Positions 3,740-39,706 of a DNA stretch of 39,706 bases are shown piece after piece. Below the pieces are notes generated by a model. It saw only the letters and a program-made list of their open reading frames with translations, was not told the origin of the DNA and searched no databases. Position numbers and translations under genes: made by a program. Source of the DNA: a virus; the IMG/VR virus record IMGVR_UViG_3300025087_000179, positions 1 through 39,706 of that record, one strand, 5' to 3'. The number at the start of each line of letters is the position of its first letter. The stretch's first letter is position 1.

Positions 3740-4512
3740 CAACGGAGAAAAAGAATGAACTTCAAAAAAAGACTTCCTCGGAAATTAGCGCGGAACTCTC
3801 GGTATCTAAAGCTGACCTTGAGCAAATGTACGGTGGCATGGGACAAGAAGATGTTACAGTGCCTCGTGTCGTTATCCTACAGGGGCTGTCTCCTGAAGTT
3901 ACTGAGGGTAAAGGTACCCCTGGACAATTCTACATTAAAGGCTTTGAACGTAATCTTAGTAAAGGGCCTGTAGAATTTATCGTCATCATGCGGAATAAGT
4001 CTAGGATCAGATGGCGAGACCTTAAGTTAGGTGGTGGGATCTTATGCACCTCTACGGATGCAAAGATTGGTCAAGGAGACCCAGGTGGAGAGTGTGAGAA
4101 GTGCGCTCACAATACCTGGACCTCAACTGATGGGAAACCAACCTGCGACTTGTATCAGAATGTGATCCTAGTACTACGACAAGATGAGGACTGGGTACCA
4201 ATGGCCTTGTCAGGCAATCGAACAAAGCTTAAGGCAATCAAAAATCTCAACAGCCTATTAATGCTTGAGATGTCTAAAGGACGTCCGCTATGCGCTAAAT
4301 CATATCTGCTTGAATCTATGCAACGGCAGAATCCTCAAGGTCTGCAGTACTTTACGTATAGGATAAGCCCTGGGAATAATAATGTGAGTCTACCAATTGA
4401 AGAGCAAAGACGCGCGCTTGCATTGTATAATAGTCTAAGAGGCAAGAAGCTTAATATCATTGAAGACACTGATGACATCAACCCTACCCCACAAAGCACT
4501 GATAACTTCTAA
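3736..4512 (+). CDS. ssDNA-binding-like replication/recombination protein
   Basis: A 258-residue protein. The sequence passes from PRVVILQGLSPEV through an aromatic/basic segment (FIVIMRNKSRIRW) to a cysteine-containing loop with CEKCAHNTW and a later TCDLYQN, likely a metal site. The C-terminal tail is acidic (IIEDTDDINP) and ends in Phe, as is common in phage ssDNA-binding proteins such as T7 gp2.5, where the tail contacts polymerase and primase. I infer an ssDNA-binding or annealing role from this tail and from position between the SNF2 helicase and primase-helicase; the family itself is only known to me as a common phage replication-module protein. Confidence 0.6.
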   Translation: MTTEKKNELQKKTSSEISAELSVSKADLEQMYGGMGQEDVTVPRVVILQGLSPEVTEGKGTPGQFYIKGFERNLSKGPVEFIVIMRNKSRIRWRDLKLGGGILCTSTDAKIGQGDPGGECEKCAHNTWTSTDGKPTCDLYQNVILVLRQDEDWVPMALSGNRTKLKAIKNLNSLLMLEMSKGRPLCAKSYLLESMQRQNPQGLQYFTYRISPGNNNVSLPIEEQRRALALYNSLRGKKLNIIEDTDDINPTPQSTDNF

Positions 4513-12890: not shown

Positions 12891-13458
12891 ATTTTCCTCC
12901 AGTCCATAAGGTTTCTACTTTGCATTGATCCGGGTTCTCTAAGGCGTAATCAAGCAGATCCCACGGCGCGGTGTCATAGTCAACGTACTTCGATACCTTT
13001 ACCTTTTGAGTTCCAAATATTTGAACGACATTTTCCGAACAGAAATCGTTTTTCTTTGATTGGTGGAACCACTTAAATCCGAATCTTAAAAACGCCTTCC
13101 AGTCATAATCAGGAAGTGAAATCCCTAATTTCGGCTTGGATGAATCCAGATAAGCCGCCTTCTTCAACGGTTCCAACTGATCCATGCGAATGTATTTGTA
13201 GGAAATAACGTCGATGCGCCGGTTGCTAAGAAATTCGGCGGTTATTTCTTGGACGCATTTAAACTTCCCCACATTCAGGAACAGCCCTTTCTCTATGTAA
13301 AAGGCGGCATGATAGGCCGGGGGTTTGTACTGATGCTTGTAAATTTTGTTCCCGAACCACTCCGTTATCTTAGTTCCCCCGTAGAAGAGGAGCGTGGAAC
13401 AATCGGGCGCGTCTTTCAATTCTATTGCTGGAAATATCGGAAGCGGCTTTGTTTTCAT
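12883..13458 (-). CDS. Permuted papain-like (C92/YiiX-type) hydrolase
   Basis: A 191-residue protein. His50 in AYHAAFYIEKG and Cys140 in DFCSENVVQIF have the order and spacing of the circularly permuted NlpC/P60 (peptidase C92, YiiX-like) fold, where His precedes Cys. Such enzymes cleave amide or ester bonds in peptidoglycan stems or lipids. It is the last gene of the late operon, directly after the holin-like gene (ATGA overlap) and endolysin, so a second cell-wall or membrane lysis enzyme is the likely role. No signal peptide or membrane helix is present. The region is more GC-rich than the rest of the genome. Confidence 0.7.
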   Translation of the reverse strand: MKTKPLPIFPAIELKDAPDCSTLLFYGGTKITEWFGNKIYKHQYKPPAYHAAFYIEKGLFLNVGKFKCVQEITAEFLSNRRIDVISYKYIRMDQLEPLKKAAYLDSSKPKLGISLPDYDWKAFLRFGFKWFHQSKKNDFCSENVVQIFGTQKVKVSKYVDYDTAPWDLLDYALENPDQCKVETLWTGGKFK

Positions 13459-13748
13459 TTAATGTTCTCCGTGATTATTTTCTTAACAAATTCAAATACG
13501 TCAACCAGCCATAACAGCGTAACAGCGGACAAAATCCACATGAGAAGTTTGTATGGTCTTGTTAAGGTGCTGACGGATTCTGTTAATGTGTCTATTCTCA
13601 TCAGTGTCTTTTCACGCCAATCGCTTGCCTTTTCTTCGTTCGATGTATACCTGTATTCAAAATCTTTGGCCCATTGTTCCTGCTTAATAACAAGCTCGCA
13701 ATGCCGTCTCCGATCCCCTTCCCTTGTCTCGCAATCTTCGTCAGACAT
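13455..13748 (-). CDS. Holin-like protein, one C-terminal membrane segment
   Basis: A 97-residue protein. The first 65 residues are charged and helical; then MWILSAVTLLWLVDVF forms one transmembrane segment close to the C-terminus, followed by a short basic end. This is the topology of XhlA-type hemolysin/holin proteins. ATG 13748 is preferred over the longer form because an AGGAG sits upstream of it, and because it overlaps the end of the endolysin gene by 8 bases. It lies between the M23 endolysin and the C92-like enzyme, which supports a holin role. Confidence 0.65.
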   Translation of the reverse strand: MSDEDCETREGDRRRHCELVIKQEQWAKDFEYRYTSNEEKASDWREKTLMRIDTLTESVSTLTRPYKLLMWILSAVTLLWLVDVFEFVKKIITENIK

Positions 13749-14196
13749 CTTTTGGTTGCTCCTTTTTATTCGCATCCTCAAATTCCATATCTAAGTAAGT
13801 CGGTGTATCGTCTGCCTTCATCCCAATGTGGAGATGCGGCCCCGATGACGATCCCGTCTGTCCCGATTTTCCTATGGGAGAATGCTGGCCCATAAAATCG
13901 CCCTCCTGCACAAGCGTTTCTGAAAGATGGGCGTAAACAACGAGGAAATATTCTTCTTTAATGATGACTTCCTGCCAGACCCGCAACCCAAAACCCTGTT
14001 TGTGGTTTCCTTCGTTTTCATAACCCACTCTTTTGATTGTTCCGTCTAAGACTGCCCTTACCTCAGTTCCCTCTGGACAAGCGAAATCAATCCCGTTGTG
14101 GAATTTCTCCGCTTTCGTTATAGGATGAATCCTCATCCCGAAATCGCTGGAAATCGGGAACTCCTTTGGCACCGGTCTTGCGACGAGAGGTTTCAT
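13741..14196 (-). CDS. M23 peptidase endolysin
   Basis: A 151-residue zinc metallopeptidase of the M23 (LytM-like) family. The metal site is HNGID (H33, D37) and HLH (H121, H123), with H90 as the likely catalytic histidine; SSDFGMRIHP near the start is the typical N-terminal M23 motif. It should cut peptide cross-links in peptidoglycan at lysis. There is no signal peptide, so release through the neighbouring holin is expected. No cell-wall-binding domain is present. It starts at an ATGA overlap with the upstream fibre gene and has no clear Shine-Dalgarno sequence. Confidence 0.92.
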   Translation of the reverse strand: MKPLVARPVPKEFPISSDFGMRIHPITKAEKFHNGIDFACPEGTEVRAVLDGTIKRVGYENEGNHKQGFGLRVWQEVIIKEEYFLVVYAHLSETLVQEGDFMGQHSPIGKSGQTGSSSGPHLHIGMKADDTPTYLDMEFEDANKKEQPKDV

Positions 14197-15443
14197 TGTG
14201 CCACCACTACGCGCCGTCTTTGATGCTCAACTGTTGCTGGGGGAGCTCCACCCAAATCCCCAGCTTCAAAATCTTTACGAAGCCATCCACCGTACGAAAA
14301 GCCACATAACCCAGCCCTCGTATTGCCTGTTATTGATGTGTCCGTCACAGATAGAAATTCAGCTCCATCTTCGTAGTAAGTCAGATCGCTCCCATCGGCC
14401 TCAAACTTATGTGTCTTACTATAATCCAGTGTCCCGCCGTCTGACGTTAATGCGGTTTCTGTGCTAGCAACGGATTTCTTTATGTAGCTTTGTGTGGGGG
14501 CTGTATCCCCCGCAAAGTAAAATGTTCGGGTTGAAGAATCATCTTTCCTAAGAAGGTACCCTTGGTTCGACGCAGATGCGTAGATGCCAGTTTGGATATA
14601 CATATCGTCTGAAGACAAATCGGAATCGGCACGGATATAATTCTTCGGATTGCTCTGATATTTAATCCATCCGGCCCCATCGCATACCCAATCTCCAAGT
14701 AATTCTGTCCAAGTTAGATCACCTTCAAAAGCCGAACAAGCTGCGGTCGGGAAGGTGTCCGTGATAGTGGTATTGTGATTCAGGGGCGACTCACTTAGCG
14801 GCCAATTGTCCGGCCTGATTTCTGTCCACACAACTTTGTACTTTTCACAATAAGCCTGTAGAATACGCCTGTGATAATCACGGTCGACCTGACGTGTAAT
14901 AGGGTCTACCATCTTTCCGTCTAGGGCCGCCTGTCTTGCCTTCCACAGGTCAATTAAAATCCTCGCCTTTATTTTATTGGTATGAAAATCACCCCATGTG
15001 AAGTTCTCACTTCTTACAATTGGATGTTTACCAAGCCTCAAATTCAGCTTCCCCTTGCTCGTCGGGATGAGTGGCTTCGGAGCCGTGATACCCATCGCAT
15101 CAGATCCATCCGTCAATTGATCCCATAAGAGATCAGAGAGCCTTTGACCCCTGGGAAGATACCCCATGATATTTAGCCATCGAATCCTGTCTGCCAAATT
15201 AACGTCAATGGTTTGAATATCGCCTTCACCAAATGAAGTGTATCCGCTTCCAAGTTCAATCTCAGACGCAATGAAAGCCACATTGGGAATATCCCGGCAA
15301 CTCAAATCAATAAGTCCTTTTGTCCCTGCCGGGGCTACCCTTGAACTCTCGTAAACTTCAAATGGGCCAAGATAATAATAGTAGGCGTTGGATATCCCTG
15401 TAAGGAACATGACAACCGACGCTATGAATAAGAATTTTCTCAT
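14193..15443 (-). CDS. Tail/host-interaction protein with signal peptide
   Basis: A 416-residue protein. A basic start and hydrophobic core lead to SNA before YYYYLG, a cleavable Sec signal with a cut after about residue 20. The middle region is unrecognised; the last 200 residues include WVCDGAGWIKYQ, YYEDGAEFLSV and GWLRKDFEAGDLGG, which look like a concanavalin/LamG-type beta-sandwich for glycan binding. The basic C-terminal tail RRRVVVAQ resembles ends of phage fibre proteins. It is coupled to the upstream fibre by ATGA and has no clear Shine-Dalgarno sequence. A receptor-binding role is likely but not proven. GC content is higher than average. Confidence 0.65.
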   Translation of the reverse strand: MRKFLFIASVVMFLTGISNAYYYYLGPFEVYESSRVAPAGTKGLIDLSCRDIPNVAFIASEIELGSGYTSFGEGDIQTIDVNLADRIRWLNIMGYLPRGQRLSDLLWDQLTDGSDAMGITAPKPLIPTSKGKLNLRLGKHPIVRSENFTWGDFHTNKIKARILIDLWKARQAALDGKMVDPITRQVDRDYHRRILQAYCEKYKVVWTEIRPDNWPLSESPLNHNTTITDTFPTAACSAFEGDLTWTELLGDWVCDGAGWIKYQSNPKNYIRADSDLSSDDMYIQTGIYASASNQGYLLRKDDSSTRTFYFAGDTAPTQSYIKKSVASTETALTSDGGTLDYSKTHKFEADGSDLTYYEDGAEFLSVTDTSITGNTRAGLCGFSYGGWLRKDFEAGDLGGAPPATVEHQRRRVVVAQ

Positions 15444-16675
15444 TGTCTTTTATAATACACCGTCAGAATAACGCCCTTCGCCACCGCGCCCGTCGCCGCC
15501 TGGTCCGTGTCCCAAACCAAATAAGCTCCCGCCGCAATCCCGGGATTCGTGAATCCAGATGTCGTATAGAGACAACCCGTAGTATTGGCTGTTGCTTCCG
15601 CAACCGTGAAAACGTCCGTCCCTGCAGAGTTAAGGGAATTAAACGCACGTTCCTCTAAATTGAACGTGACGGAGGATGCGGAAGCGGAGAATGCCGTGGC
15701 GGTTATGGATGTAATCGTGATGGCGTAATCTCTGGGGGCTTGCCAGACCGGGAAGGTATCACCCGCCCAATTCGATGAGGCGTACCATGTCGATAGGACG
15801 ACAGAGAAGTGTTCCACGTTGTTTGATATAACCAACCCGGACACATGAATCGTTGTCGAGATGTCCAGCTCTCCATTCGTTGCATCTGGAGCAATATCAA
15901 ACACCTTTCCACTCACGGAACTGTCAAACCTTAACCTTCCGTCCCATGATGCATTATGATCCCTCAATAACAATGTCGGGCCTGTGTTTGTTGGATCAAA
16001 ATACAGCCCTGATTTATTGGCGGAACTGACGATCACTTCAGATATGATCGTTCCTCCGTCAAATGTTATCGGATCAGTATGCCCAATCTCTAGACGATCG
16101 CTTCCAAGGATAAATTTCATCCGTGGGACGAAACCCGCCCCCCCCGTAGAACCCTGAACGGCAAAATATCCGTCTACCGTTGAATTTAAAAAATTGAAAT
16201 CGTCAAGCATGAAATAACTTGAATATGGGGCGCCTGAGAATGTTCCAAAACCCCACCTACCCATACCAGTAAAATCACTCCCATTCCTAATCGACAACGG
16301 CCAATCAAGGCCATACAAAGGGTCTACCGTAGTAGAATCATAATCAAGCGAATTGCTCCCCGATCTAAGATGGAATGTGCCTGTGGATGACAAGTGATTC
16401 AAAACCTTATCCCATGTTAAATTGGAATCACCGCCCAAAGAACCGCCGTCGTTGAATTGAATCTGAGTGTCGGAACCCCCCCCAGTTGCAGTAATAATAA
16501 CTCCAGTTGTAGTAGTAGTAATAGTCACTCCAGCACCTGCTTCAATGCTAATTGTAGAAAGTGCAGTAATATAATCTAACTTCCCCGTAAATGGGTTATA
16601 TTTAAGCTTTGTCTGCTCAGCTTGTAAAACAGAACCAAAACATAAAAAACTTAATAGCAATAATAATTTTTTCAT
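15440..16675 (-). CDS. Tail fibre-like protein with signal peptide
   Basis: A 411-residue protein. Residues 1-19 are a clear Sec signal (MKKLLLLLSFLCFGSVLQA, cut before EQ). A Thr/Ile-rich low-complexity stretch follows, then TQIQFNDGGSLGGDSNLTWD, a motif common in phage fibres and spikes, then a beta-rich body. The base composition changes sharply near 16480: codons 1-60 are AT-rich and the rest is GC-rich, which suggests recombination that swapped the fibre body. No Shine-Dalgarno sequence is seen before the ATG. It precedes the second signal-bearing fibre gene by ATGA overlap. Confidence 0.7.
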   Translation of the reverse strand: MKKLLLLLSFLCFGSVLQAEQTKLKYNPFTGKLDYITALSTISIEAGAGVTITTTTTGVIITATGGGSDTQIQFNDGGSLGGDSNLTWDKVLNHLSSTGTFHLRSGSNSLDYDSTTVDPLYGLDWPLSIRNGSDFTGMGRWGFGTFSGAPYSSYFMLDDFNFLNSTVDGYFAVQGSTGGAGFVPRMKFILGSDRLEIGHTDPITFDGGTIISEVIVSSANKSGLYFDPTNTGPTLLLRDHNASWDGRLRFDSSVSGKVFDIAPDATNGELDISTTIHVSGLVISNNVEHFSVVLSTWYASSNWAGDTFPVWQAPRDYAITITSITATAFSASASSVTFNLEERAFNSLNSAGTDVFTVAEATANTTGCLYTTSGFTNPGIAAGAYLVWDTDQAATGAVAKGVILTVYYKRQ

Positions 16676-16678
16676 AAA

Positions 16679-16924
16679 TTAAGAGTATGACAATGAAGCA
16701 CGATCATCCCAGACGTTATCAAAGTCATCATTACCATCAGCCCAATCAATCTGTGTTACGTTAGACCCATCATACGTGAGCTTCTTAATCCGCCACCTAG
16801 CAACTGATGTAGCATACCCAGGATAAGCTTCTCCTATATACTCCGGGTTCCCATCTGCAGTATAGGCAATCCGTTGCTTGAACGGAGAACCAAAGTCAAT
16901 TGATTTAGTTGCAAAACTAGCCAT
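16679..16924 (-). CDS. Small conserved tail-region protein, 81 aa
   Basis: A short beta-rich protein with a conserved look: EYIGEAYPG, VARWRIKKLTYDG, WADGNDDFDNVWDDRASLSY. I recognise the pattern from small genes beside ejection and fibre genes in other podovirus-like genomes, where the function is unassigned. GGAGG lies ten bases before the ATG. No signal peptide is present, unlike the fibre genes that follow it. Confidence 0.75.
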   Translation of the reverse strand: MASFATKSIDFGSPFKQRIAYTADGNPEYIGEAYPGYATSVARWRIKKLTYDGSNVTQIDWADGNDDFDNVWDDRASLSYS

Positions 16925-16925
16925 A

Positions 16926-19900
16926 TCATTCCTCCATCTGATGCGCTAAAACACGACCTAAAAGTGGTATCTTCTTCGTTGCAGTCTTAAATAGAGGCTC
17001 TAGATCTTGTGCTCGTATAGAGGTGCCAATAGCACCAGCAACCTCAAAGACATTCTTAAGCGCAATGGGTGTAACAAATGAGGTTAATCTGTCACCACCT
17101 TGCATTGCTAAAAAGAACAAGTCAACAGCAGGTCCAAACGCAGTAGCATTAGCTAGCACCTGGATAGCGATATCTATGTCCTCGTCACCAGTGATCTCAA
17201 CATCATTCTCACCAACCATCGCATCGCGGATAGTCTTGATGACATACCCAGTAGCTGGAAGACCAATCGCCATCTCGCCTAAACGCGTAAAATTCCCTGT
17301 CTGAAATCCACGCTTGATCAAGGACGCATTCTGCTTGCCTATCACATAGGAGAAGTTCTTAAACTGAAACATCAACTTACCCTGCCAGGTGGTCCAGAAC
17401 TCAGGCAACCTGGTAACATCAGGTGCTCCCTGTGTCATGTCAGCAAACCTCTTGGCACCAACATTAAGCTCTAGATCATTCAACCCCTTTTGAGCTATGA
17501 TCTTATTGGTGTCGTAACCTAGATGCTGTAACTCAACAAGAGCTGTCTTGTCACCATGGTTACGTAGCAACTTATTTACAAGTGATGGGATGTAGTCCTT
17601 ACCAACAAGCGATGAGTACTTACGGAAAAAATGATCCATCCTTGCAAATCCAGTCATGCTCATCATCTTATCAGCAAACTTTCCTGCAAACCCGTAACCA
17701 CCACCATAGGCTTCCTTCATGTAATCAGTAGCAGCTGTAGTGAAGACCTGCCCTGCACGTTTAGCCTCTGCCTCACCAAGTGAGGTAAAGGTCTTTGCAA
17801 AACCTTTGACCGCTCGTATAAATCCAGCTTCATAGGCAGGCATCATGGCTTGACCAAGTTGAAGAGCAGTAGACTGTGCCTGGATGAGCATCCCAGCAGC
17901 AAGATTACGAAGTCCCTGAGCCCCACGAAGATAGACCTGATCACGCGGTTCAATACGAGTAAATCGCTCAAAGATGGTCCTTGCCAGCTTGTCATCGAAC
18001 CCCGTCTCGGCTATTCCCTTGATCATCTCCAAGGCTCGTTCACCCTCGAGGCCGAATTGACGAACCTCCTCAATCCTATGCAAAGCGCTATTCATGTACT
18101 CAGGGATCACCCTCATAGCATTACGGTCATAATATTCAGGCGGTAGGTCCATCTCACGGGCTCGTTCAAGATGACCATACTTCTGAGAACCAAGCTTATT
18201 ACGCATGAACTTGACCCGTTCAAACGCAATAGGATAGCTAGGTGCTTGCCTATTAGCTACCATCCTCTCAGCCATCTCTCGCATCACCTTGTTGTCACCT
18301 GCAATAAGCTTGTCAAAGATCTCAGGCCGCAACATCCGTGGGAAGTAGTTCTCACGAGGGGCAAATGGTAACGTCTCTCCCACTTGGTTACGAACCTCAA
18401 GCTTAACTCCTGCAGCCTCATCAGCAATGACTCGAAGCTTCTGTTGCACGAACTCAAGAAGACCTTTTGGTAGCCCTCTTCCTTTAGCCCTACCTTCTAA
18501 CGCATCAGCCAACAAGGTGGTTACCTTACGTGCCTGCTTCTTGCTCATCCCCTTAAAAAAGTCATCAAATTCAGCAGAAAATTCACCATAGCGAACTGCT
18601 GGAACATCACGAACTGTCCTGATCCCATTAGCAAGCTGCCTACCAAAGTCGCCCATGCCAGAGACTGCATCCTCTGCAGCAACACCGATCCGGTTCCAAG
18701 CATCCTGCATCCAGCTACGGCTGCCTGCCACCACGCCTTCCTTGATCACAGGCACCTCTCCACTACCTTGCAATAATGGGCTTGAGTCTACTATCCTTGC
18801 ATCAAGCCCAAGCTCCTTAACAACAGGAGAGTTCTTGGTAGTCTGGGCAGAAGCAGTCTCAACATCAGAAGCAACATGCTTCTCAAACATGGGATCATTA
18901 GCAAGTTTAAAGGCAGCCCTTCCAGTCTCAGGGTCTCTGAAGATCTTAAGCCGTGTTGGTTCCCCAGAGAACTGTGCACGGCTTTCATCCACCAGCTCTG
19001 TAACAGCTGGGTTCATCCTATCAGCTGGGGCTACCTTCTCAGGGATGGTATCAAAAGAAGATACATCAGTTGGAAATCTTTCTACCAGACCAACACCTTT
19101 ACCACTGAATTGTCTACTGAGGCGTGATTCAATTTCCAAATCAACAAGCTTTCCAATATCATCTTTAGAAATGACATATTGATTATAAGCTTTAGAACCT
19201 AAACCGCCCTTTACACGTTGAACCCAAACACTGATATCATTAATTTTTGCAGTAGCATATTCATGTAATTGTTTTCCTAATAATTCTTTATTTAATGAAG
19301 TCCCAAAATGTTTTTCAATGAGTCTTGTAATTTCAAAATCTCCTTCCATACCGGTATCCGGTGAAGAAATTAACCAAACCATATCGTCAGGATTTTGTTT
19401 AAATCTAGCTGGTAAATACTTGAACATGTCTCGTATTTCTATTTCATCATTATCATACATTACATCAGCTAAAGTATAATGTTCAGTTCGTTCTTTAATG
19501 GAATTTAGAGTATCAAGAGGAACATCATCACCTTGTGTAGGTATAGATAGTCTTTGCCCTTGGATCTTAGCTAGATCAGGTGCTTCACTCATTACAAAAC
19601 CTTCGCCTTCAACTTGCTTTGATGCCCCTAACAACAAGGGTTTCTCAACCTTGGGACCAAGCTCAATAGCAGTCTCACCACCTTTGAGTAGTGTAGTAGG
19701 AACCTCAGTTTGTCTACCTAGCTCAGGTTGATAGGTCAGCTGAGGTCTTTCCCGCATCAGGATCTTATCTAACATCGCAGCCTCCGCACGTGCATTACCT
19801 GCTGCTCTAATAGCAGCGATACCCTCGATAGAGAAAGCAATATCAGGAGCCCTAGCCACTATAGTACCTGCAGCAGCAGAGATGTACGGGTTAACACCAG

Positions 19901-22244: not shown

Positions 22245-22919
22245 TTAATACCGTATGATATAGTTGACATAAATATTTATTGGGCGTGTTTCTACATCAC
22301 CACCACCTATCGTGTGTGTATGCGCCCCGCCATCATTATCTGTCTCATTCGTATAAATAGTATTATTTCCATCTGATTTTTCTGGAACGTTGTTAGCAGC
22401 AGTACCTATCCCAGAGAATTGGTAAGTATGTGAATGATCCCCTGGATCACTAGTTGTAAAAGCTGATGTTGGTAGTTTTGTCATCTGCCCTTGAATAGAA
22501 CCTACATTATCGCCAGTAGCACCACCTGTAGCCATTGCAGTTCTAGTTGTGTCATTGGGATCACGCCCTGCAGAACCATCACGCCCGCGTAAAAATCTTC
22601 CACGAAAATCAGGCAAGGTAAATGTTGTTGTATTATCACCTTGGCCAAATCTCTCGCCTATAACGGCAAAAAGAGCAGCATAAGTAGTCCTACTAACAGA
22701 AGAACCGTCACAAATAAACCAACCAGTAGGTGCCGTATCCCCGCTGTAAATTTTTATCTCCCCGATGATATTACCAACTGAATCATTACCAGTAACTTGA
22801 TCAAGAGTCTTATACAGCTCCTGAAACTCCCGTTGAATTTCATTATCCTTATGCTGGTAAATAGGACCAGCGGCATACAAATTACCAGCTAGGAAAATCA
22901 ACCAGATAAATTTTTTCAT
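22245..22919 (-). CDS. Tail-collar-domain fibre with signal peptide
   Basis: A 224-residue protein. Residues 1-16 form a Sec signal (MKKFIWLIFLAGNLYA, cut before AGP). The body from residue 50 is a phage tail-collar domain: GEIKIYSGDTAPTGWFICDG, then FTLPDFRGRFLRG and HSHTY and HTHTIGG histidine pairs, ending in NIYVNYIIRY. Such domains occur at fibre tips and bind receptors with metal ions. It overlaps the nozzle gene by ATGA. A secreted version of a collar fibre is unusual. Confidence 0.85.
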   Translation of the reverse strand: MKKFIWLIFLAGNLYAAGPIYQHKDNEIQREFQELYKTLDQVTGNDSVGNIIGEIKIYSGDTAPTGWFICDGSSVSRTTYAALFAVIGERFGQGDNTTTFTLPDFRGRFLRGRDGSAGRDPNDTTRTAMATGGATGDNVGSIQGQMTKLPTSAFTTSDPGDHSHTYQFSGIGTAANNVPEKSDGNNTIYTNETDNDGGAHTHTIGGGDVETRPINIYVNYIIRY

Positions 22920-25711
22920 TGAATAGGTCTCATCTTATAGATTAAATTGCCGCCATACAATCGCATGGGCGCATTAAGTTCATCATTTTGAAATTTAAAT
23001 GCTATTGAACGGCCAAAGACCTGATGATCAGCATCAAACGGGAACGGCAATTTTAGGCTGATAAATCCAACTTGTTCATTCGCAAGCACGGAACTCAAAG
23101 AATACTCAGTGCTTTCTCGGTCAAGATAGTAGGTGGTGTTAATGTTATAGGCACCTAACGCATCAGCAAGCAGCCAAAATTCCTTATACAACTTATCATT
23201 CATCACACCATCTAACGCGTAATCTTTTGTCTTGACGAAGGCATTAATCGCTGCACCAGCATCACTATACCCCTGGTTATCAAGATACACCCTGCCGCTA
23301 GGATACGCATCGGCGTGATAAAGCTCATCCTTATAGATGATAAACGCCCCGGCACCGATGTTAAACTCGGTCCAATTAAGCTTGTTATTAGCCGCGCCCT
23401 TTGACAGTACAAAGGTTGCATCATTGTTATTACTAAGGCTATTCGTTGCCAACGATACCCAGTACCGATCCTTATAGATTACACTTGTCATCCGTGGTCG
23501 CCTGGTACCCTCGTTCCACTTGACTGTGGTATTGTACAAAATTGGTGCTTGGGTCGCCGCGGTAATTGTAAAGGTTGCCCTGTACTGGATATACGCCTTC
23601 GGTGTTGCTGTAATTTGTGCATTTACCGTCTGAACGGTACAGGTACTTTTAGTAAAGGCAGCAAAGGTAGAGACACAAACTGCAAAATTTATACTACCAC
23701 TTCCAAGATCAAAGGTGGCATCAAATGAACCAAACGAAGCAATGCCAGAACCTATATTATAGATAGGTGAAATATAGGTACCATACGGTCTTCGTTTCTC
23801 GCTCATTGAGATTGTCACATCATTTAACGTTGGTGTTTTTGTAATGGTATCAGTTGTAGTTAAAGTTGCCTTGTATCGTAAATATCGTTTTACTGTAGAA
23901 GATACATTACCACCACTAGCAAATGTACTAGTTAAAGTTGTCCAAGTTGTTGCAGGACTAGCACTTGATGTTTGAGTCTGATAAATAATGTTAGTTCCTG
24001 CTGGTTTTGACGCACCACCTGTTAATGCACCCCAAGACCAAAGCCAAGAAGCTGTTGTAATGCCCACGTCAAACGTACGAGAAAGAATTGTTCCAGTAGA
24101 ATAATAAAATGTGGCAGAGGTAAAATCAACCCTGAATCGTAAATCATCAGCTGCACATGCAGCCCCGTCATACCAAGCATATCCTCCAGCATATGGATTT
24201 CCTGTTACTGAATCAAATATAGTACAATGATCAGGATCACCTGGCATATAAATCCAGTAAGTTGCTCCAGGTGTAGCATAGTATGGTGTACTCAAATGCG
24301 CTTCTTTCCATCCTGTACCATTCGCTATAGAACCAGATGCAAGATTAGCCCCTCCAACAGTTGACCTAATGGCGAATCCTAATGAAGCTCCAGGTGCGCT
24401 GTTTAAATAAACAGAAATTGAATGTATGTAGCATGGTGTTGATGGTGCTACAAAACTTTGTGCTACAGGTAATCCTTCCCATGGTGCATCATTACAATTT
24501 TCAAAATTACAATCATACGGAGGACCACCTGTATCTTGAGTAATATCTGTAGGAATAGTTGCCCATGTTTTTAACGTAAGACTGTTCGCTGTTGTAATCG
24601 TGCTAAGATTAACCAACGTACCGGCACTAAAATTAGCAGATGAGGTGTCAACAAAATCTGCATGAGCGGCATCTGTGCCTAAAACTACCGTACCTGGGCT
24701 AATTGTAGTTGAGGTCCATCCTGTCGGTGTGCCGCTGCCATCATTAAACTCATCCTCACTTGTTAAGGTCCATGATTTTTGGCTAAAGGAAGAATATAAA
24801 GCTGGTTGAAGCCTATTAAGGATCTTCTTCGACACAGGGTTCCAACTGACCCCGTCGAATAAATCAAACCCACGTTTACTGAGACATAAAATTCCACCAG
24901 CAAACGGTTGAATTGTACCAGCATCAATACAGCCATATTCTGAGGTTAAAACCCTGACTTGAAAGTCATCCTGGTCAAACCCGTATAAGGCATGCATCGA
25001 ATCTTTCTTAGGAATATAAATAGCATCATTCAACCCGGAAAATAATCCAGTGATCCCATCAGATTTATCGGTCAACCCAACAATATAGGTAACTGGATCA
25101 GTCGCCAATGAACCAGTCGCCCAGTTGGTAGCATCAAGATACTCAGATGAGGAAAGTTCATTTTGATTAGGATGCGCTTTACCTGCTACCCAAAGTCTAC
25201 CTTTAAACTCGGTGATCAACTCACCTAAAGGTGATCCTGTTAAAAAGACCGCTGGTTTAGCAGTTTGAGTCCCGTCCCAAGAATAAACTCCTTGCACAAG
25301 GTCAACAAAATAGATCTTGCCGAAAGCATTAACAGCACCAACTAAACTAGTTGCTGGTGCAGGTACAGTTGCAATCTTAACTGTAAAAACACCAGTTCCT
25401 TTCGAGGCCCTAATAGCATCAGAAGACAGGACAACGATCCAGTTATTATTGCTTGAGTCAGTGTACTTCCAACCATTGGTAAACCTAAAGGTCCCTGTAG
25501 TTCCATAGGTAGTGTAACCATTCCGTTTGACAAGAGAGTTGTCCTCATCAAACCACATATTTAATACATCTTGCACCTCATCATCAGCGATGGTTAATGA
25601 TGAATAATTAGAGTTCAACCCACCAGTAAAATTAGTGAATATAAAAGGCTTCTCACCTTCAGCATAAGCAAGAGAGCCTGCTAAGACAATAGCATATAGC
25701 AGCTTTTTCAT
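22916..25711 (-). CDS. Tail nozzle/stabilisation protein with signal peptide
   Basis: A 931-residue protein. MKKLLYAIVLAGSLAYA is a classic Sec signal with cleavage before EGE. The mature start FTNFTGGLNSNYSSLTIADDE and the following VQDVLNMWFDEDNSLVKRNG match the opening of podovirus nozzle or P22 gp10-like packaged-DNA stabilisation proteins, which are beta-propellers. The middle (about 340-650) is Thr/Ser-rich and beta-like with jelly-roll-like inserts, probably extra binding domains. In known phages this protein assembles in the cytoplasm without a signal. It overlaps both neighbours by ATGA. Confidence 0.78.
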   Translation of the reverse strand: MKKLLYAIVLAGSLAYAEGEKPFIFTNFTGGLNSNYSSLTIADDEVQDVLNMWFDEDNSLVKRNGYTTYGTTGTFRFTNGWKYTDSSNNNWIVVLSSDAIRASKGTGVFTVKIATVPAPATSLVGAVNAFGKIYFVDLVQGVYSWDGTQTAKPAVFLTGSPLGELITEFKGRLWVAGKAHPNQNELSSSEYLDATNWATGSLATDPVTYIVGLTDKSDGITGLFSGLNDAIYIPKKDSMHALYGFDQDDFQVRVLTSEYGCIDAGTIQPFAGGILCLSKRGFDLFDGVSWNPVSKKILNRLQPALYSSFSQKSWTLTSEDEFNDGSGTPTGWTSTTISPGTVVLGTDAAHADFVDTSSANFSAGTLVNLSTITTANSLTLKTWATIPTDITQDTGGPPYDCNFENCNDAPWEGLPVAQSFVAPSTPCYIHSISVYLNSAPGASLGFAIRSTVGGANLASGSIANGTGWKEAHLSTPYYATPGATYWIYMPGDPDHCTIFDSVTGNPYAGGYAWYDGAACAADDLRFRVDFTSATFYYSTGTILSRTFDVGITTASWLWSWGALTGGASKPAGTNIIYQTQTSSASPATTWTTLTSTFASGGNVSSTVKRYLRYKATLTTTDTITKTPTLNDVTISMSEKRRPYGTYISPIYNIGSGIASFGSFDATFDLGSGSINFAVCVSTFAAFTKSTCTVQTVNAQITATPKAYIQYRATFTITAATQAPILYNTTVKWNEGTRRPRMTSVIYKDRYWVSLATNSLSNNNDATFVLSKGAANNKLNWTEFNIGAGAFIIYKDELYHADAYPSGRVYLDNQGYSDAGAAINAFVKTKDYALDGVMNDKLYKEFWLLADALGAYNINTTYYLDRESTEYSLSSVLANEQVGFISLKLPFPFDADHQVFGRSIAFKFQNDELNAPMRLYGGNLIYKMRPIQ

Positions 25712-26424
25712 TCACGTTTACCAGTAAACCCAGGGTTAAAATCAGGCATTGAATAGATACCTTTACGCATCATCTCAATTGAGGTAGCCCATTCTTGATA
25801 ATACATGTTGGCTAGATCATTTTCTTCGAGAGCACGAAAAGCTCGATATGTCACATAATAGACAAGAGCGCTATGATAAGGAGTTAAAGTATTCCAACCA
25901 TTCCAAGGGGTCTCAGTAGTTGCAGTAATCTCAACGGGTTGTTTTATATAATAAACAACCACAGAGGTAACAGTTGGGCTAGTAGGTTTTGGATGAAAAC
26001 CCATCAACGTGTAAGTTGAACGATAGAGATAATACTTTTGAGGTGTTGCTCCAGTAGCTGCTAACCATCCCTTAGAATCAGCATCAAGCTGATCTAAACT
26101 AGTTTGTTCTAGCTTAAGATTATTATGCAACACACGACTAGTAGACAAGAAGTCAGCAGGAAGGTTATATTCTCTGGTACCAGACACCAGAGTAATGGTA
26201 TAGATATCTTGTAATAACCACGCTAAGACATTAGCTTCACGTTGACCATCATTGAGATACTGAATTAATGAGGTGTCATTAAATTGCTGTCTATCTGTAG
26301 CAACAGATTGATCTTTAAGATTAACACGAACTCTGCTTAAGATCTCAGCAACCGTCATCCCGTAAGAAGGGGATGCCAGTAAAAAAACTAGGATAACAAA
26401 ATAATGTTTCAACCTACTTTTCAT
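25708..26424 (-). CDS. Head-tail adaptor (connector) with signal peptide
   Basis: A 238-residue protein. The first 22 or so residues are a basic then hydrophobic Sec-like signal ending in SPSYG, directly before MTVAEILSRVRVNLKD, which looks like the ordinary start of podovirus head-tail adaptors. Further family features are IQYLNDGQREANVLAW, REYNLPADFL, a YLYRSTYTLMGFHPKP hairpin and a C-terminal helix with YYQEWATSIEMMRKG. Adaptors bind the portal ring in the cytoplasm, so a signal is unexpected. ATG 26424 follows a G-rich Shine-Dalgarno sequence; the GTG two codons earlier is less likely. A 12-codon ORF overlaps its start. Confidence 0.78.
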   Translation of the reverse strand: MKSRLKHYFVILVFLLASPSYGMTVAEILSRVRVNLKDQSVATDRQQFNDTSLIQYLNDGQREANVLAWLLQDIYTITLVSGTREYNLPADFLSTSRVLHNNLKLEQTSLDQLDADSKGWLAATGATPQKYYLYRSTYTLMGFHPKPTSPTVTSVVVYYIKQPVEITATTETPWNGWNTLTPYHSALVYYVTYRAFRALEENDLANMYYQEWATSIEMMRKGIYSMPDFNPGFTGKRE

Positions 26425-26471: not shown

Positions 26472-27140
26472 TTAGCGCAATTTAATAAGTATCAGTCCAC
26501 CAGCCGTAGTTGCCCTTGCTGACATAGCTACGCCAACATCGGCTCCAGTCGTAGGAGTGATGTCAGTCATCAAATAACCCCGTGAAACGGTACTATTAAC
26601 CAACGTTCCACCTGCAGTTATAGCTCCAGTAGCTAATGCTAAAACAAACCCATCAGTATACATACCCACTATAGAACCAGTTGAAGCAGCCGCAGAAGCA
26701 ATACCTAACCAGCCTGTTTTATCTGCAGCAATATTGCATACTGCAACAGTAACACCATTATTGGTGCTAGCTGGAGTTGTAGATACAAGAAGAGAACCTT
26801 CAATAGCAGCCTGTGTACCTTTCAAATACACATATACAATGGTCCCACGACTAGTACCAGATGTAGTAGCAGTACTAATAGAAGCACTTGAACTACCCCA
26901 GTATATATTATCACCAGTTGAACCAAGGATATTTAGATCATCAGTAACAGTGAGATCATCACTAACAGTAATATCGGGAGCAGTTAAAGTACCTGCTATC
27001 TCAACACTACCATCTGACAAGATCCTAAAAATACTTGATCCACTGACTTGATAATCTAGATATGTATATGTAGCAAACAACAACATGGGAGCCATCAATG
27101 CAAAAACAAGAATGTTCCATTTTCTAATGAATTTCTTCAT
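26472..27140 (-). CDS. Capsid decoration-like protein with signal peptide
   Basis: A 222-residue protein. The basic N-terminus and hydrophobic segment (ILVFALMAPMLLFA, cut before TYT) form a signal or signal anchor. Residues about 115-222 alternate Gly/Ala/Thr-rich beta strands (GWLGIASAAASTGSIVGMYT, GTLVNSTVSRGYLMT, GVAMSARATTAGGLILI), resembling DUF2190-like capsid decoration proteins. It lies just downstream of the capsid and a helical protein, where decoration genes often are. AGGAGG precedes the ATG. Confidence 0.55.
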   Translation of the reverse strand: MKKFIRKWNILVFALMAPMLLFATYTYLDYQVSGSSIFRILSDGSVEIAGTLTAPDITVSDDLTVTDDLNILGSTGDNIYWGSSSASISTATTSGTSRGTIVYVYLKGTQAAIEGSLLVSTTPASTNNGVTVAVCNIAADKTGWLGIASAAASTGSIVGMYTDGFVLALATGAITAGGTLVNSTVSRGYLMTDITPTTGADVGVAMSARATTAGGLILIKLR

Positions 27141-27619: not shown

Positions 27620-28510
27620 TTACGAGTTAGAACCGTAGATCCATCTCCAATCAGACCATCCGAAAGAATAATATGCATAACCAGCATATTTAGCTTGCAG
27701 AGTATCAAAGTCTCGATCTTTGAAGAACTGTACCGGTTCACGGTCAAACCATAACAGAAACATCTTCATCAACTCAGAGTCAACCATCCACCAATCAGTT
27801 GACGAGGTCAGATAGTTAGGCCACACAACAAGCTTATACTTCCCTTGATGGAAGTTAGCATTATTCTGGGCAGTATCTACCTTACCCTTAGAGTTAATAA
27901 GCTCAAATGCTTTCTCTTCAAGTTGAAGAGGAACAATGAGCATGTCAGGTTTAACAGTGATGATGTTATCACGATTTGACTTGAATGCTGTCATAGCCTG
28001 TCTAACTGTTTCAACAGCAGTAGGTGAAAATGCATCTGTACCAACGTTAGACTGATTAGCGCCACCAACTTTTGAGGTGTGCGCAGAATTACAAAGGCAC
28101 AATGAATCACCACCAACAATGGCTGTATTAAACGAGTTATTAAACACGCTAGCGCCATCGGCCTCACGTCGCCGATACGCAGCCAAACCAAGAGCTTGAG
28201 GTCTCCGGTTAATTACAGAATACTGATCATTCAAGACGAGACGTCTTTCAATCTTAATACCACGAGCATATTCAAGATGCGTATAATCAGTCTTGTAACC
28301 TTCACCGGTGTCATCATATGGGATTGAACCTTCAAAAGGCTCAAAATCCGAGATATCACCCATCTCAAGATCATGTTCCACGGCTTTGCTAGATTCTTGC
28401 ATGCTAAACAATATGGGTAACATCGACTCTTGCCGATTAAAAACATCTGCAAAAACTTTACGAAGTCCAGGTTCAAGCAGATTCGGCCAGTTTTCTTGTA
28501 TCATCGTCAT
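27620..28510 (-). CDS. Major capsid protein
   Basis: A 296-residue protein resembling the HK97-fold major head subunits of the Mu gpT-like group. The N-terminus has LLEPGLRKVFADVFNRQES, the E-loop-like part runs through GDISDFEPFEGSIPYDDTG and KIERRLVLNDQY, and the core includes PDMLIVPLQLEEKAFEL and KLVVWPNYL, with a final segment rich in Trp and Tyr. It follows a scaffold-like protein, as expected. CTTATCCTCC before the start reads as a good Shine-Dalgarno on the minus strand. Confidence 0.85.
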   Translation of the reverse strand: MTMIQENWPNLLEPGLRKVFADVFNRQESMLPILFSMQESSKAVEHDLEMGDISDFEPFEGSIPYDDTGEGYKTDYTHLEYARGIKIERRLVLNDQYSVINRRPQALGLAAYRRREADGASVFNNSFNTAIVGGDSLCLCNSAHTSKVGGANQSNVGTDAFSPTAVETVRQAMTAFKSNRDNIITVKPDMLIVPLQLEEKAFELINSKGKVDTAQNNANFHQGKYKLVVWPNYLTSSTDWWMVDSELMKMFLLWFDREPVQFFKDRDFDTLQAKYAGYAYYSFGWSDWRWIYGSNS

Positions 28511-30779: not shown

Positions 30780-32891
30780 CTATGATTGTACTTGTTTAGT
30801 TGAATTACTTGTGTCAAATGGTCGTTTGCGTGCTATACCACCCTCGCTCTTTTGTTGCTTGCCCTGAGTACCTGCCAATGTTCTCCCTAACATCTGATGT
30901 GTTTCAGGTGCAAGAGGGCTTAACATCTGTTCTTGCTGTTGTAACTCTTGGAGCATCTGTTCCATCGTTGGGATCAACTTATAGATATTACGTTGCCGCA
31001 TAGCTGTTAGGACCCGTACTATCAACTCTCGTCGCCTGATCATATTTGTTCCAATCAATGGTTCATTAGACAAAAGTTGATATAATGTTAACTCTCGTTG
31101 AAATAATTGGTCAGGATTATCATTGATGGAGGTCCTAGCCACCTCAAGATATAGGTCTCGAGCGCGTAACTTCTGTCTGGCTATCTGATTCTGAATAAAC
31201 TTACCAGTATTAGGGTCCTTGCTTGAATACACAATAGTCTCTGGTGCATACTGATAATAAAGTTCTAAGATCTGGATCCCAACTTCAGCAGTTCCAATGC
31301 GAAGTTCTCGCATATGATCGTCAACTCTGATATCACTTTGAGCAAGTTGTAATTGGATCTTCTTTCCTGATGCACGAGGATCACGAGAAGCCTCTCTACC
31401 TGATCGAAGTGACGAAGCACCAGTACGAAGTTCTGCAAGATACATCAAATTCTGCTCTTCTTGTAAACTTTGACCTAAATCGGTCTGTTTTATCTCAAAT
31501 TGCTTTATCTGATTCATATTTGAGACTTTAAAAGTACATCCTGGGAAAAATCTTTGGTCTTTTCGAGTAGGATTGAACTCAAAATTATCAACCTTTAAGA
31601 AGGAAGGCACTGTTGAAATTGTACGGCTATCAATACGTTGATTATGCTGTGTGTCTATCTCTTCGTTTATATCACCTAGCTGTTCGTAGATAGATTGACC
31701 TAACAATCGTTTAGGTCTTTTCTTAAACCGCCAAGGGATATATTTAACTCGATTATGCAGATAAGGATAACACTCAAATCGAAGGATAGTTTTACTGTCA
31801 GGGTTAAACCAAACTAAGTATCTTTTCTCAGGTTCCATATCATCAGGATCCACTAAAGCACCAATATTAATATTTATAACACCTTGCATACTCCAATATT
31901 CATCTGGTTTTGTGATTCTTTGACGAGAAATGCCTTCAATATTATCTTGTGCTTGTGATCCTTCATCAGGAGCACCTGTTAATCCAGGTTTTTGGAGCAT
32001 CTTTTTGACCTCTTCCTTGTCAAACCACTCTTGTTTAACCATCTTCTTATAATAATCTGCCCGTTCTAGAAACATGTCACCTACAAACAACGCATACTCA
32101 AGAGTTGGTGAAGTAGTAGGCACTATAACTAAATTTTTCAACTCAACCTGTCTTAACTTAGGTCCTCTATAGATAGCAATATACTCTTCAACCTTAAGTT
32201 GTACCTCACCTGTCATCACTATCTCTTCAATTATGCCATTATATTTCTCAAACGAAATACCAGCGCTTTCTGGTGTAGGAAAAGCTTCAATAAAACTCTC
32301 TGGTGTCATAAATCGTAAGATGTCATATTGAGTACTATATTCTTCAACCCAATCTAAATCACCAAAGGCTGTTCCATCACGATATGCATTCCAATAGATA
32401 TCAGATAGCGTTGAGTCAATCTTAAGTTCAAGCTTTGAAACTGAGTTTAGAAATGACTCAATCTCGCTGTCAAGACCTTCTGGAACATCATCACGTTTAA
32501 TCCGTACATACCAAATAGGATCATTATCTAACATTGTTGAAGAGACCACAGAATGCAAGATTGTGATATGTATCTCTATGATTGGCACATGAAGATTACT
32601 ACAACCTTCCCATGGAAAGTCTTTAGCATCCTTAATACCTTCCATAAGGTCATTTGCCTTGCGTAACTTATTTCTAAGCAACGATGTATTGGCTTGCCAC
32701 TCTCGGTAAATATTACTAAGAACCTCTCGGAGCTTGTCTTTTTGCTCAACAGTTAATGGTTCTTGGCGTCTGTAAAAATGAGCAGATTTTTTAAGCTTTT
32801 TTACAGTCGTTTGAGGCGATAAAGGTACCTCACCTTGTGGAGGTGGGGTAACTCCTAACAATATAGCTTGCTCACGAGAGACAGTCAACAT
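30780..32891 (-). CDS. Portal protein
   Basis: A 703-residue portal of the podovirus/P22-like type. It includes the early segment DLMEGIKDAKDFPWEGCSN and NLHVPIIEIHITILHS, the helix-rich stem with DSTLSDIYWNAYRDGTAFGDL, the loop region around YIPWRFKKRPKRLLGQSIYE and QHNQRIDSRT, and a long C-terminal coiled-coil barrel (LIPTMEQMLQELQQQEQML). It forms the dodecameric vertex through which DNA is pumped. It follows the terminase large subunit and four small genes. Confidence 0.88.
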   Translation of the reverse strand: MLTVSREQAILLGVTPPPQGEVPLSPQTTVKKLKKSAHFYRRQEPLTVEQKDKLREVLSNIYREWQANTSLLRNKLRKANDLMEGIKDAKDFPWEGCSNLHVPIIEIHITILHSVVSSTMLDNDPIWYVRIKRDDVPEGLDSEIESFLNSVSKLELKIDSTLSDIYWNAYRDGTAFGDLDWVEEYSTQYDILRFMTPESFIEAFPTPESAGISFEKYNGIIEEIVMTGEVQLKVEEYIAIYRGPKLRQVELKNLVIVPTTSPTLEYALFVGDMFLERADYYKKMVKQEWFDKEEVKKMLQKPGLTGAPDEGSQAQDNIEGISRQRITKPDEYWSMQGVININIGALVDPDDMEPEKRYLVWFNPDSKTILRFECYPYLHNRVKYIPWRFKKRPKRLLGQSIYEQLGDINEEIDTQHNQRIDSRTISTVPSFLKVDNFEFNPTRKDQRFFPGCTFKVSNMNQIKQFEIKQTDLGQSLQEEQNLMYLAELRTGASSLRSGREASRDPRASGKKIQLQLAQSDIRVDDHMRELRIGTAEVGIQILELYYQYAPETIVYSSKDPNTGKFIQNQIARQKLRARDLYLEVARTSINDNPDQLFQRELTLYQLLSNEPLIGTNMIRRRELIVRVLTAMRQRNIYKLIPTMEQMLQELQQQEQMLSPLAPETHQMLGRTLAGTQGKQQKSEGGIARKRPFDTSNSTKQVQS

Positions 32892-36260: not shown

Positions 36261-36581
36261 TTAGCCTCCCACCAAGTCAAGAACCGCGATGATCTCATCA
36301 GCTTCAATGATGCGATAAATAAATCCCTTATCAGCTTCTTCAATGAGCCCTGGGTCAAGCCACTTACCCGCGTGGCCAGCAATAAGCACCACCTCACCAA
36401 CTTCAACATCTTTAACACCATCATGTTTCGCTAAGATCTCGGCTTTGACTGTCTCTTCTTGCCACTGCTCATCTTTTTTCACTATCTTGAGACCAGATTT
36501 TGTCTCATCGCTCTGGCTTGCTAGCTTTACTAACAGCTTATTAGCCGTTGGTTTGATCACTACCTTCAAGTTATCTACCAT
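36261..36581 (-). CDS. GroES-like co-chaperonin
   Basis: A 106-residue Cpn10-fold protein. Visible family parts are VVIKPTANKLLVKLASQSDE (first strand and mobile-loop entry), SGLKIV, TVKAEILAKHDG, DVEVGEVVLIAGHAGKWL and the C-terminal YRIIEADEIIAVL. Like T4 gp31 and RB49 CocO it may replace host GroES so that host GroEL folds the major capsid protein. The mobile loop is short. AAGGAAGG precedes the ATG. It lies early in the late operon, so it would be made before capsid protein. Confidence 0.88.
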   Translation of the reverse strand: MVDNLKVVIKPTANKLLVKLASQSDETKSGLKIVKKDEQWQEETVKAEILAKHDGVKDVEVGEVVLIAGHAGKWLDPGLIEEADKGFIYRIIEADEIIAVLDLVGG

Positions 36582-36602: not shown

Positions 36603-37178
36603 TTAATCTTCCCCTTTATATTTAAGCTCCACATAAACAGTAATAGCAGCTGCACCAGCCCTCATATATAGCACCAAATCACCAGCTGCCACTCGTACAT
36701 TTGTACCTAATGCTGAGGGGATCGTGGTGCTGGATTGATACAGTGAGGATGCAGAAATTGTATCATTAGAAAAGATATATGGTGTTACCCCACCTTTAAC
36801 ACGGAGATTATAGACAACCTCATTCCCAAGGCCCATCCTAACCTCATTATTGGTGTTCGAGACATTTTTTGTGTTCTCGAGGCTTAAAAAATATGAGGCA
36901 TTTCCTTGAGTTGCACTACTAAACGTCACTACACCAAGTTTCACGGTGCAGGTTGAAGTCGCAGCCTTATCAACACCTACACGAACATCATATAGATGAA
37001 GCTCTTTTGAAGGGTCGTGGTTCCAATTAGTGGTATTTGAAAGATCAATAATGACAGTAGCTGTAGCAACATGCGCAGCAATTGCTTGCCTATAGCGCAA
37101 GGTCTGCACGTCATATTGAGCCGCTTGTGCAAAACCTACAAAAACTAGTAACCCTGCAAGACCAAGTAACCTTTTCAT
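36603..37178 (-). CDS. Secreted beta-rich late protein, 191 aa
   Basis: MKRLLGLAGLLVFVGFAQA is a clear Sec signal with an AQA cut before AQYDV. The mature part is beta-rich and Thr/Ser/Val-rich (LHLYDVRVGVDKAATSTCTV, VAAGDLVLYMRAGAAAI), with one Cys, and no known motif. It may be a decoration-like or tail accessory protein, but could also be a periplasmic effector. GGAGG precedes the ATG. It sits between the terminase small subunit block and the GroES-like gene, which is not a usual place for a tail gene. Confidence 0.6.
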   Translation of the reverse strand: MKRLLGLAGLLVFVGFAQAAQYDVQTLRYRQAIAAHVATATVIIDLSNTTNWNHDPSKELHLYDVRVGVDKAATSTCTVKLGVVTFSSATQGNASYFLSLENTKNVSNTNNEVRMGLGNEVVYNLRVKGGVTPYIFSNDTISASSLYQSSTTIPSALGTNVRVAAGDLVLYMRAGAAAITVYVELKYKGED

Positions 37179-39376: not shown

Positions 39377-39429
39377 GAACTTATAACAAAAAATATTTCC
39401 TCAAAATTTCAAAAACTAAACCCTGAAGT

Positions 39430-39578
39430 ATATTCTTATATTCTCATATTCTTATATTCTCATATTCTTATATTCTCATATTCTTATATTCTCATATTCT
39501 TATATTCTCATATTCTTATATTCTTATATTCTTATATTCTCATATTCTTATATTCTTATATTCTTATATTCTCATATT
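39430..39578. repeat. 8-bp AT-rich tandem array (TTATATTC/TCATATTC)
   Basis: Around 18 units of TTATATTC or TCATATTC, often alternating to give a 16-bp period. The array is translatable in one frame as an Ile/Tyr/Ser repeat, but this is a by-product. It ends at GGAATATAAGG, the inverse of the unit. Could be a DNA-unwinding element or a collapsed assembly repeat. Confidence 0.9.
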
Positions 39579-39610
39579 GGAATATAAGGTAATTAATATT
39601 TATTATATCC

Positions 39611-39690
39611 TTCTCCTCTGTAAATCGTCCTTCTCCTCTGTAAATCGTCCTTCTCCTCTGTAAATCGTCCTTCTCCTCTGTAAATCGTCC
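39611..39690. repeat. Four perfect 20-bp tandem repeats
   Basis: TTCTCCTCTGTAAATCGTCC occurs four times in a row at 39611, 39631, 39651 and 39671, with no spacer between copies. No CRISPR-like structure. It ends in TCC and runs into a GTTACAA unit at 39693. Confidence 0.95.
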
Positions 39691-39706
39691 TTGTTACAAC
39701 TTGTTA
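39687..39706. repeat. Truncated copy of the iteron region at window end
   Basis: GTCCTTGTTACAA (39687-39699) is an exact copy of 39321-39333, after which the window ends within another GTTA. The genome or contig therefore stops inside a repeat. Confidence 0.6.

Follow-up and report, generated by a model that had tools for sequence, protein, structure and literature searches.

The 238-aa product of one late gene in the window (the whole stretch of DNA analysed, a 39,706-base virus record with early genes on the + strand and late genes on the - strand) is a podovirus head-tail adaptor preceded by a predicted Sec-type signal peptide. The first-pass annotation had singled out this leader; its observation is confirmed and is larger than stated there, leaders being found on six more late genes (Table 1). 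Seven of the 41 genes called score as encoding signal peptides, and all seven are on the late strand and none is a head, packaging or ejection gene. We put at about 0.6 the probability that the leaders function as cleavable signal peptides of the Sec pathway and that external tail parts are exported, trimmed and joined to filled heads at or after the opening of the inner membrane. The assembly of tailed phages is taken to be cytoplasmic, and leaders on tail proteins without leaders on head proteins imply that the two sets of parts arise on different sides of a membrane.

Table 1. Features of the window discussed in the text; all signal peptides are predicted
Feature	Position	Strand	Evidence
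Head-tail adaptor precursor, 238 aa, SU10_adaptor family	25708..26424	-	PF24175, phrog_399, Foldseek
Adaptor signal peptide, 22 codons, MKSRLKHYFVILVFLLASPSYG	26359..26424	-	SP score 9.0; 0/500 shuffles
Adaptor core, begins at internal Met (MTVAEILSRV...)	25711..26358	-	Pfam match 25-221
Probable tail nozzle, 931 aa, signal peptide MKKLLYAIVLAGSLAYA (25661-25711)	22916..25711	-	Gene order, weak phrog_511 match in relatives, weak fold hits
Tail collar fibre protein, signal peptide MKKFIWLIFLAGNLYA (22872-22919)	22245..22919	-	PF07484 Collar 1.1e-24
222-aa protein directly upstream of adaptor, signal peptide about 27069-27140	26472..27140	-	SP score 8.9
191-aa protein near terminase genes, signal peptide MKRLLGLAGLLVFVGFAQA (37122-37178)	36603..37178	-	SP score 9.8
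411-aa tail-fibre-like protein, signal peptide MKKLLLLLSFLCFGSVLQA (16619-16675)	15440..16675	-	phrog_9942 tail fibre 4.5e-5; SP score 8.3
416-aa protein, probably tail fibre or spike by position, signal peptide MRKFLFIASVVMFLTGISNA (15384-15443)	14193..15443	-	SP score 8.9
Major capsid protein, no signal peptide	27620..28510	-	phrog_4523 1e-18, phrog_371
Portal protein, no signal peptide	30780..32891	-	phrog_1216 6.7e-17
M23 peptidase, probable endolysin, no signal peptide	13741..14196	-	PF01551 1.4e-21

The adaptor and its leader

From MTVAEILSRV onward the protein is an ordinary member of its family, as had been proposed. It matches Pfam SU10_adaptor (PF24175) at 1.1e-29 and 104.7 bits (cut-off 27), and phrog_399 at 5.9e-24, both matches starting at residue 25. 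The PF24175 cut-off is also passed by four of five other adaptors tested from the clade described below, L010 falling under it. Foldseek searches with the adaptor model, which is of low confidence (pLDDT 53) and gives low TM-scores, returned 19 hits with E<=0.001, every one a phage tail, neck or portal complex; the best was GP4 8jov_2 (1.2e-6) and the other top hits were KHP30, SU10, N4 and crAss001, all solved podophage complexes. The same GP4 virion protein is found by the adaptor profile among PDB sequences (8e-8), and its residue 4 aligns to profile position 23, directly past the leader. Within the late operon the gene comes after that of the capsid protein, and the order portal, scaffold-like, capsid, adaptor, nozzle-like is the same in the window and its relatives. 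In L042 (3833-7000) and L043 (7433-10600), an ORF of 1055 aa gives about five consecutive matches to the adaptor profile, apparently because adaptor-like domains have been fused in tandem.

Leaders were scored with a home-made rule for n-, h- and c-regions; nine well-known signal peptides of the E. coli type, put through it as a check, all passed. The 22-residue basic and hydrophobic leader seen in the first-pass annotation scores 9.0, equalled by none of 500 residue shuffles. Most leaders score 8.2-10.9, against 6.7-10.2 for the known controls, and the leaders follow the type I Sec plan of a basic n-region, a hydrophobic h-region and small residues at -3/-1. No lipobox (lipoprotein signal) or Tat motif was seen by eye in the leaders. 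Cleavage of the window adaptor would fall between SYG and M (residue 22) or between TVA and E (residue 26); the scorer favours a cut four residues inside the core for this adaptor and that of L045, which leaves two candidate sites.

The upstream ATG stands about 5 bases from a G-rich Shine-Dalgarno-like stretch (AAGAGGGGGGTGCCT-ATG), and an alternative GTG two codons further upstream is also a possible start. Ahead of the internal ATG (26358) the window sequence reads CATCCCCTTCTTACGGG, in which no clear Shine-Dalgarno-like stretch is seen.

Leaders on other late genes

The 931-aa protein encoded next to the adaptor is probably the tail nozzle, judging from gene order and from weak profile and fold matches. 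The comparison was with podovirus nozzles such as P22 gp10, T7 gp12 and those of the SU10 type. The protein has no Pfam match; a relative matches phrog_511 at 3.8e-8, the P22 tail and GP4 are weak fold hits, and the structural model (pLDDT 35) is too poor for use. The leader is present in the nine relatives having this gene. The L045 copy is stop-interrupted: at about 4195-4215 it reads GTG AAG TAA CTG..., where the third codon is a stop in frame with a leader that otherwise resembles a signal peptide; this stop is either a sequencing error or a real change.

The gene past the nozzle also has a leader in L006, L008, L010 and L014, and in L045 by eye, that of L053 being below threshold. A leader occurs on the gene at the position of the 222-aa protein in L006, L008, L010, L032, L045 and L053. 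Comparable to the 191-aa protein of the window is the product of an L008 gene (309-1034) that lies ahead of the large terminase and has a predicted signal peptide; in L006 (3176-4006) a similar hydrophobic stretch lies behind a long N-terminal part. The 416-aa protein has no family match in the Pfam and PHROG profiles. Outside the clade, Pelagibacter phage HTVC023P (L026) has two adjacent genes that score as encoding signal peptides, at 15448-16104 (MRIFVILLLTMGVSFA...) and 16138-17523 (MRSIVLISLLTILILTTSIKS...), between its capsid and adaptor genes; its adaptor itself has no signal peptide. They may point to export being used in a related way by marine podoviruses.

Besides the leaderless capsid, portal and M23 proteins in Table 1, the scorer found no signal peptide in the terminase, a 238-aa decoration-like protein or three probable ejection proteins. 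Since the M23 peptidase has none, lysis presumably needs a holin. The profile search gave no holin family match in the window; a 108-aa protein (13455-13781) has a hydrophobic C-terminal stretch.

Further features of the window are a GroES-like co-chaperonin gene beside the packaging genes (36261-36581, - strand; Cpn10 E 0.0019, just below the cut-off), GroES being encoded near the capsid gene in several outgroup phages, and tandem repeats near both ends (39429-39692, with 8/16-base and 20-base units, and 4-365, with G-rich units of 6-30 bases). Neither tRNA genes nor an exact terminal repeat (15-200 bases) were found in the window.

Three pairs of nozzle cysteines (259/290, 679/691 and 855/914) are gained or lost together and might be disulfides made outside the cytoplasm. 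As a control, His columns pair as often as Cys columns (6 of 28 against 5 of 36). Each of the six full-length nozzles listed has an odd total of cysteines in its mature part, so this protein does not show the even-cysteine signature of periplasmic proteins.

Distribution of the leader

Relatives were collected with portal, capsid, adaptor and nozzle profiles. The clade, which is known from metagenomic contigs only, comprises ten distinct adaptors (the window, L006, L008, L010, L011, L014, L032, L035, L045 and L053), and two fragments (L005 and L004) give identical protein matches. L053 was placed by profile and tree and lies outside the identity alignment; the aligned adaptors are 38-50 % identical to that of the window.

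A signal-peptide-like leader precedes the core in 10/10 clade adaptors. The leaders of L006 score low, at 6.3 for the adaptor (78 of 500 shuffles as good) and 6.8 for the nozzle. A chance hydrophobic leader is ruled out by the shuffles together with the conservation in all ten. Set against 37-50 % identity of the proteins to that of the window, the leader sequences are not conserved, but share a plan of one to several K/R, then a hydrophobic stretch, then A-x-A-like residues, with ASA, VHA, AQA, SWA, CWG, AHA or SQA directly ahead of the core. Turnover of the sequence with retention of the plan would be expected under selection for a signal peptide. At the core boundary there is no ATG, GTG or TTG in nine members, the window being the sole exception, so translation in these nine must begin within the leader. 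An internal start as the rule for the family is thereby ruled out.

The same adaptor profile retrieved 73 wider relatives with 22-31 % identity, and none of these adaptors has a signal peptide (0/73; one, L121, is badly aligned). They begin, for example, MATITVASIL..., MPAEEFSY... or MAITAQSII..., mostly 0-7 residues before the core. A few have longer upstream open frames plus a second start at the core, and these too fall short of a signal-peptide score. The outgroup, eight adaptors taken from phage records and contigs, also lacks signal peptides (0/8), its proteins beginning MATSGT... or similar. Leaders of this type are rare among outgroup genes generally (6/302, and 3/654 in a second set), and none was found among 202 genes lying up to four genes downstream of outgroup adaptors. 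In outgroup L103, the nozzle-profile gene next past the adaptor has no leader.

A family-wide leader is ruled out by the leaderless outgroup adaptors, and a leader added ahead of a normal adaptor gene, as first suggested, is supported by the data. Translation from the internal Met and a leader shared by family members of cytoplasm-assembling phages had each been named in the first-pass annotation as a refutation, and neither was borne out: the nine relatives speak against the one, and the wider relatives and outgroups against the other. In a maximum-likelihood tree of sequences without leaders, the clade with signal peptides forms one side of a branch with support 100/99. This fits a single origin of the trait, on a tree whose root and long branches are uncertain. 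The one genome hit that might have pointed to a host by way of a prophage, the Rhodospirillales MAG contig L021, is uninformative, since its downstream genes belong to a different type of phage and include no adaptor match.

Alternative explanations

The leaders could be uncleaved signal anchors, the tails then forming as membrane-bound complexes at which heads dock. Every leader does have a hydrophobic stretch behind basic residues, and a membrane site would aid the meeting of head and tail; but short h-regions with small-x-small sites adjoining the core typify cleavable signal peptides, and a retained hydrophobic tail of 20 residues per adaptor copy is hard to fit beside the portal. We consider this unlikely, though not negligible. 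Restriction of the trait to one clade, which could track one host group, would suit real export that serves an unusual host cell plan, such as large internal membrane compartments in which the virion is completed. The head proteins have no leaders, however, and heads and tails would still lie across a membrane from one another, which makes this explanation quite improbable. Podophage tails interact with membranes at entry, which would suit a Sec-independent, membrane-active pro-peptide of the virion, for example one for DNA entry. Such a pro-peptide would have to account for leaders on at least five unrelated proteins, including an adaptor buried beside the portal, each with an A-x-A-like site, and we rate it as distinctly improbable.

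Two readings concern the start codon. The internal ATG at the core boundary of the window gene would allow two products, with the full-length protein exported to do something else and a shorter, cytoplasmic one entering virions, but the lack of a clear ribosome-binding stretch at this ATG, and of any start codon there in nine relatives, makes such a division of labour very hard to accept. Finally, the data are from metagenomes only and alternative starts exist, so that a wrong start or non-functional upstream translation might be suspected; as ten distinct contigs retain, in frame with the core, the architecture of a signal peptide, and in nine the core has no start of its own, an artefact is scarcely credible.

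Proposed export and assembly

If the leaders are working Sec signal peptides, as we favour, the adaptor, probable nozzle, collar fibre and other fibres, all external parts of the tail, would be made as precursors and exported by Sec across the inner membrane of a host that presumably has two membranes. Signal peptidase I would cut these precursors, and the adaptor would be left with nearly the same N-terminus that its relatives get by direct initiation. The capsid, portal, terminase and ejection proteins would stay in the cytoplasm, where heads would be filled, and tail and head would come together upon membrane opening, either at the inner membrane or while the cell lyses. We infer export and cleavage of the tail proteins from the gene sequences; the place and time of head-tail joining are conjecture. 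Joining at or after membrane opening is favoured because the probable endolysin lacks an export signal of its own and is presumably holin-dependent. For the broader proposal, that this lineage builds its tail outside the cytoplasm by Sec export, with periplasmic trimming and folding (perhaps with disulfides) and with heads joined across the inner membrane or after its loss, we would give roughly even odds.

In P22- and T7-like phages, tail parts are joined to filled heads in the cytoplasm, which counts against export. The conflict between the leader and cytoplasmic assembly, raised in the first-pass annotation, is real if the leaders work. No reports of signal peptides on adaptor or nozzle proteins of tailed phages were found in the open-access literature and, as far as found there and in general knowledge, a periplasmic route of tail building is not described for Caudoviricetes. 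The leaders offer a sequence mark for spotting further phages that may assemble via the periplasm.

Comparison with known systems

Among virion proteins, Sec signals are known from the coat proteins pIII and pVIII of M13, which are established Sec precursors, with the virion assembled from the membrane. Filamentous phages extrude without lysis, and both their proteins and their virion are unrelated to those of the window, which represents a tailed phage encoding a capsid, a portal, a terminase and a probable endolysin. Export signals are also known from lysis proteins of phages, such as SAR endolysins and spanins. The esterase gp40 of Xanthomonas phage PBR31 has an N-terminal export signal and resembles tail-associated hydrolases (PMC10975493). 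The N-terminal export signals of these proteins are like those predicted for the tail proteins of the window; however, these are lysis or envelope proteins, whereas the window leaders are on structural parts of the head-tail junction and tail.

The closest counterparts of the adaptor are the SU10-type adaptors (PF24175, phrog_399), solved in SU10, Ralstonia phage GP4, N4 and crAss001. They have the core family and fold in common with the window adaptor, and their gene is likewise placed past the capsid genes and ahead of the probable nozzle gene. Nearly all others seen begin 0-7 residues from the core, whereas the window clade adds a predicted signal peptide of 20-32 residues.
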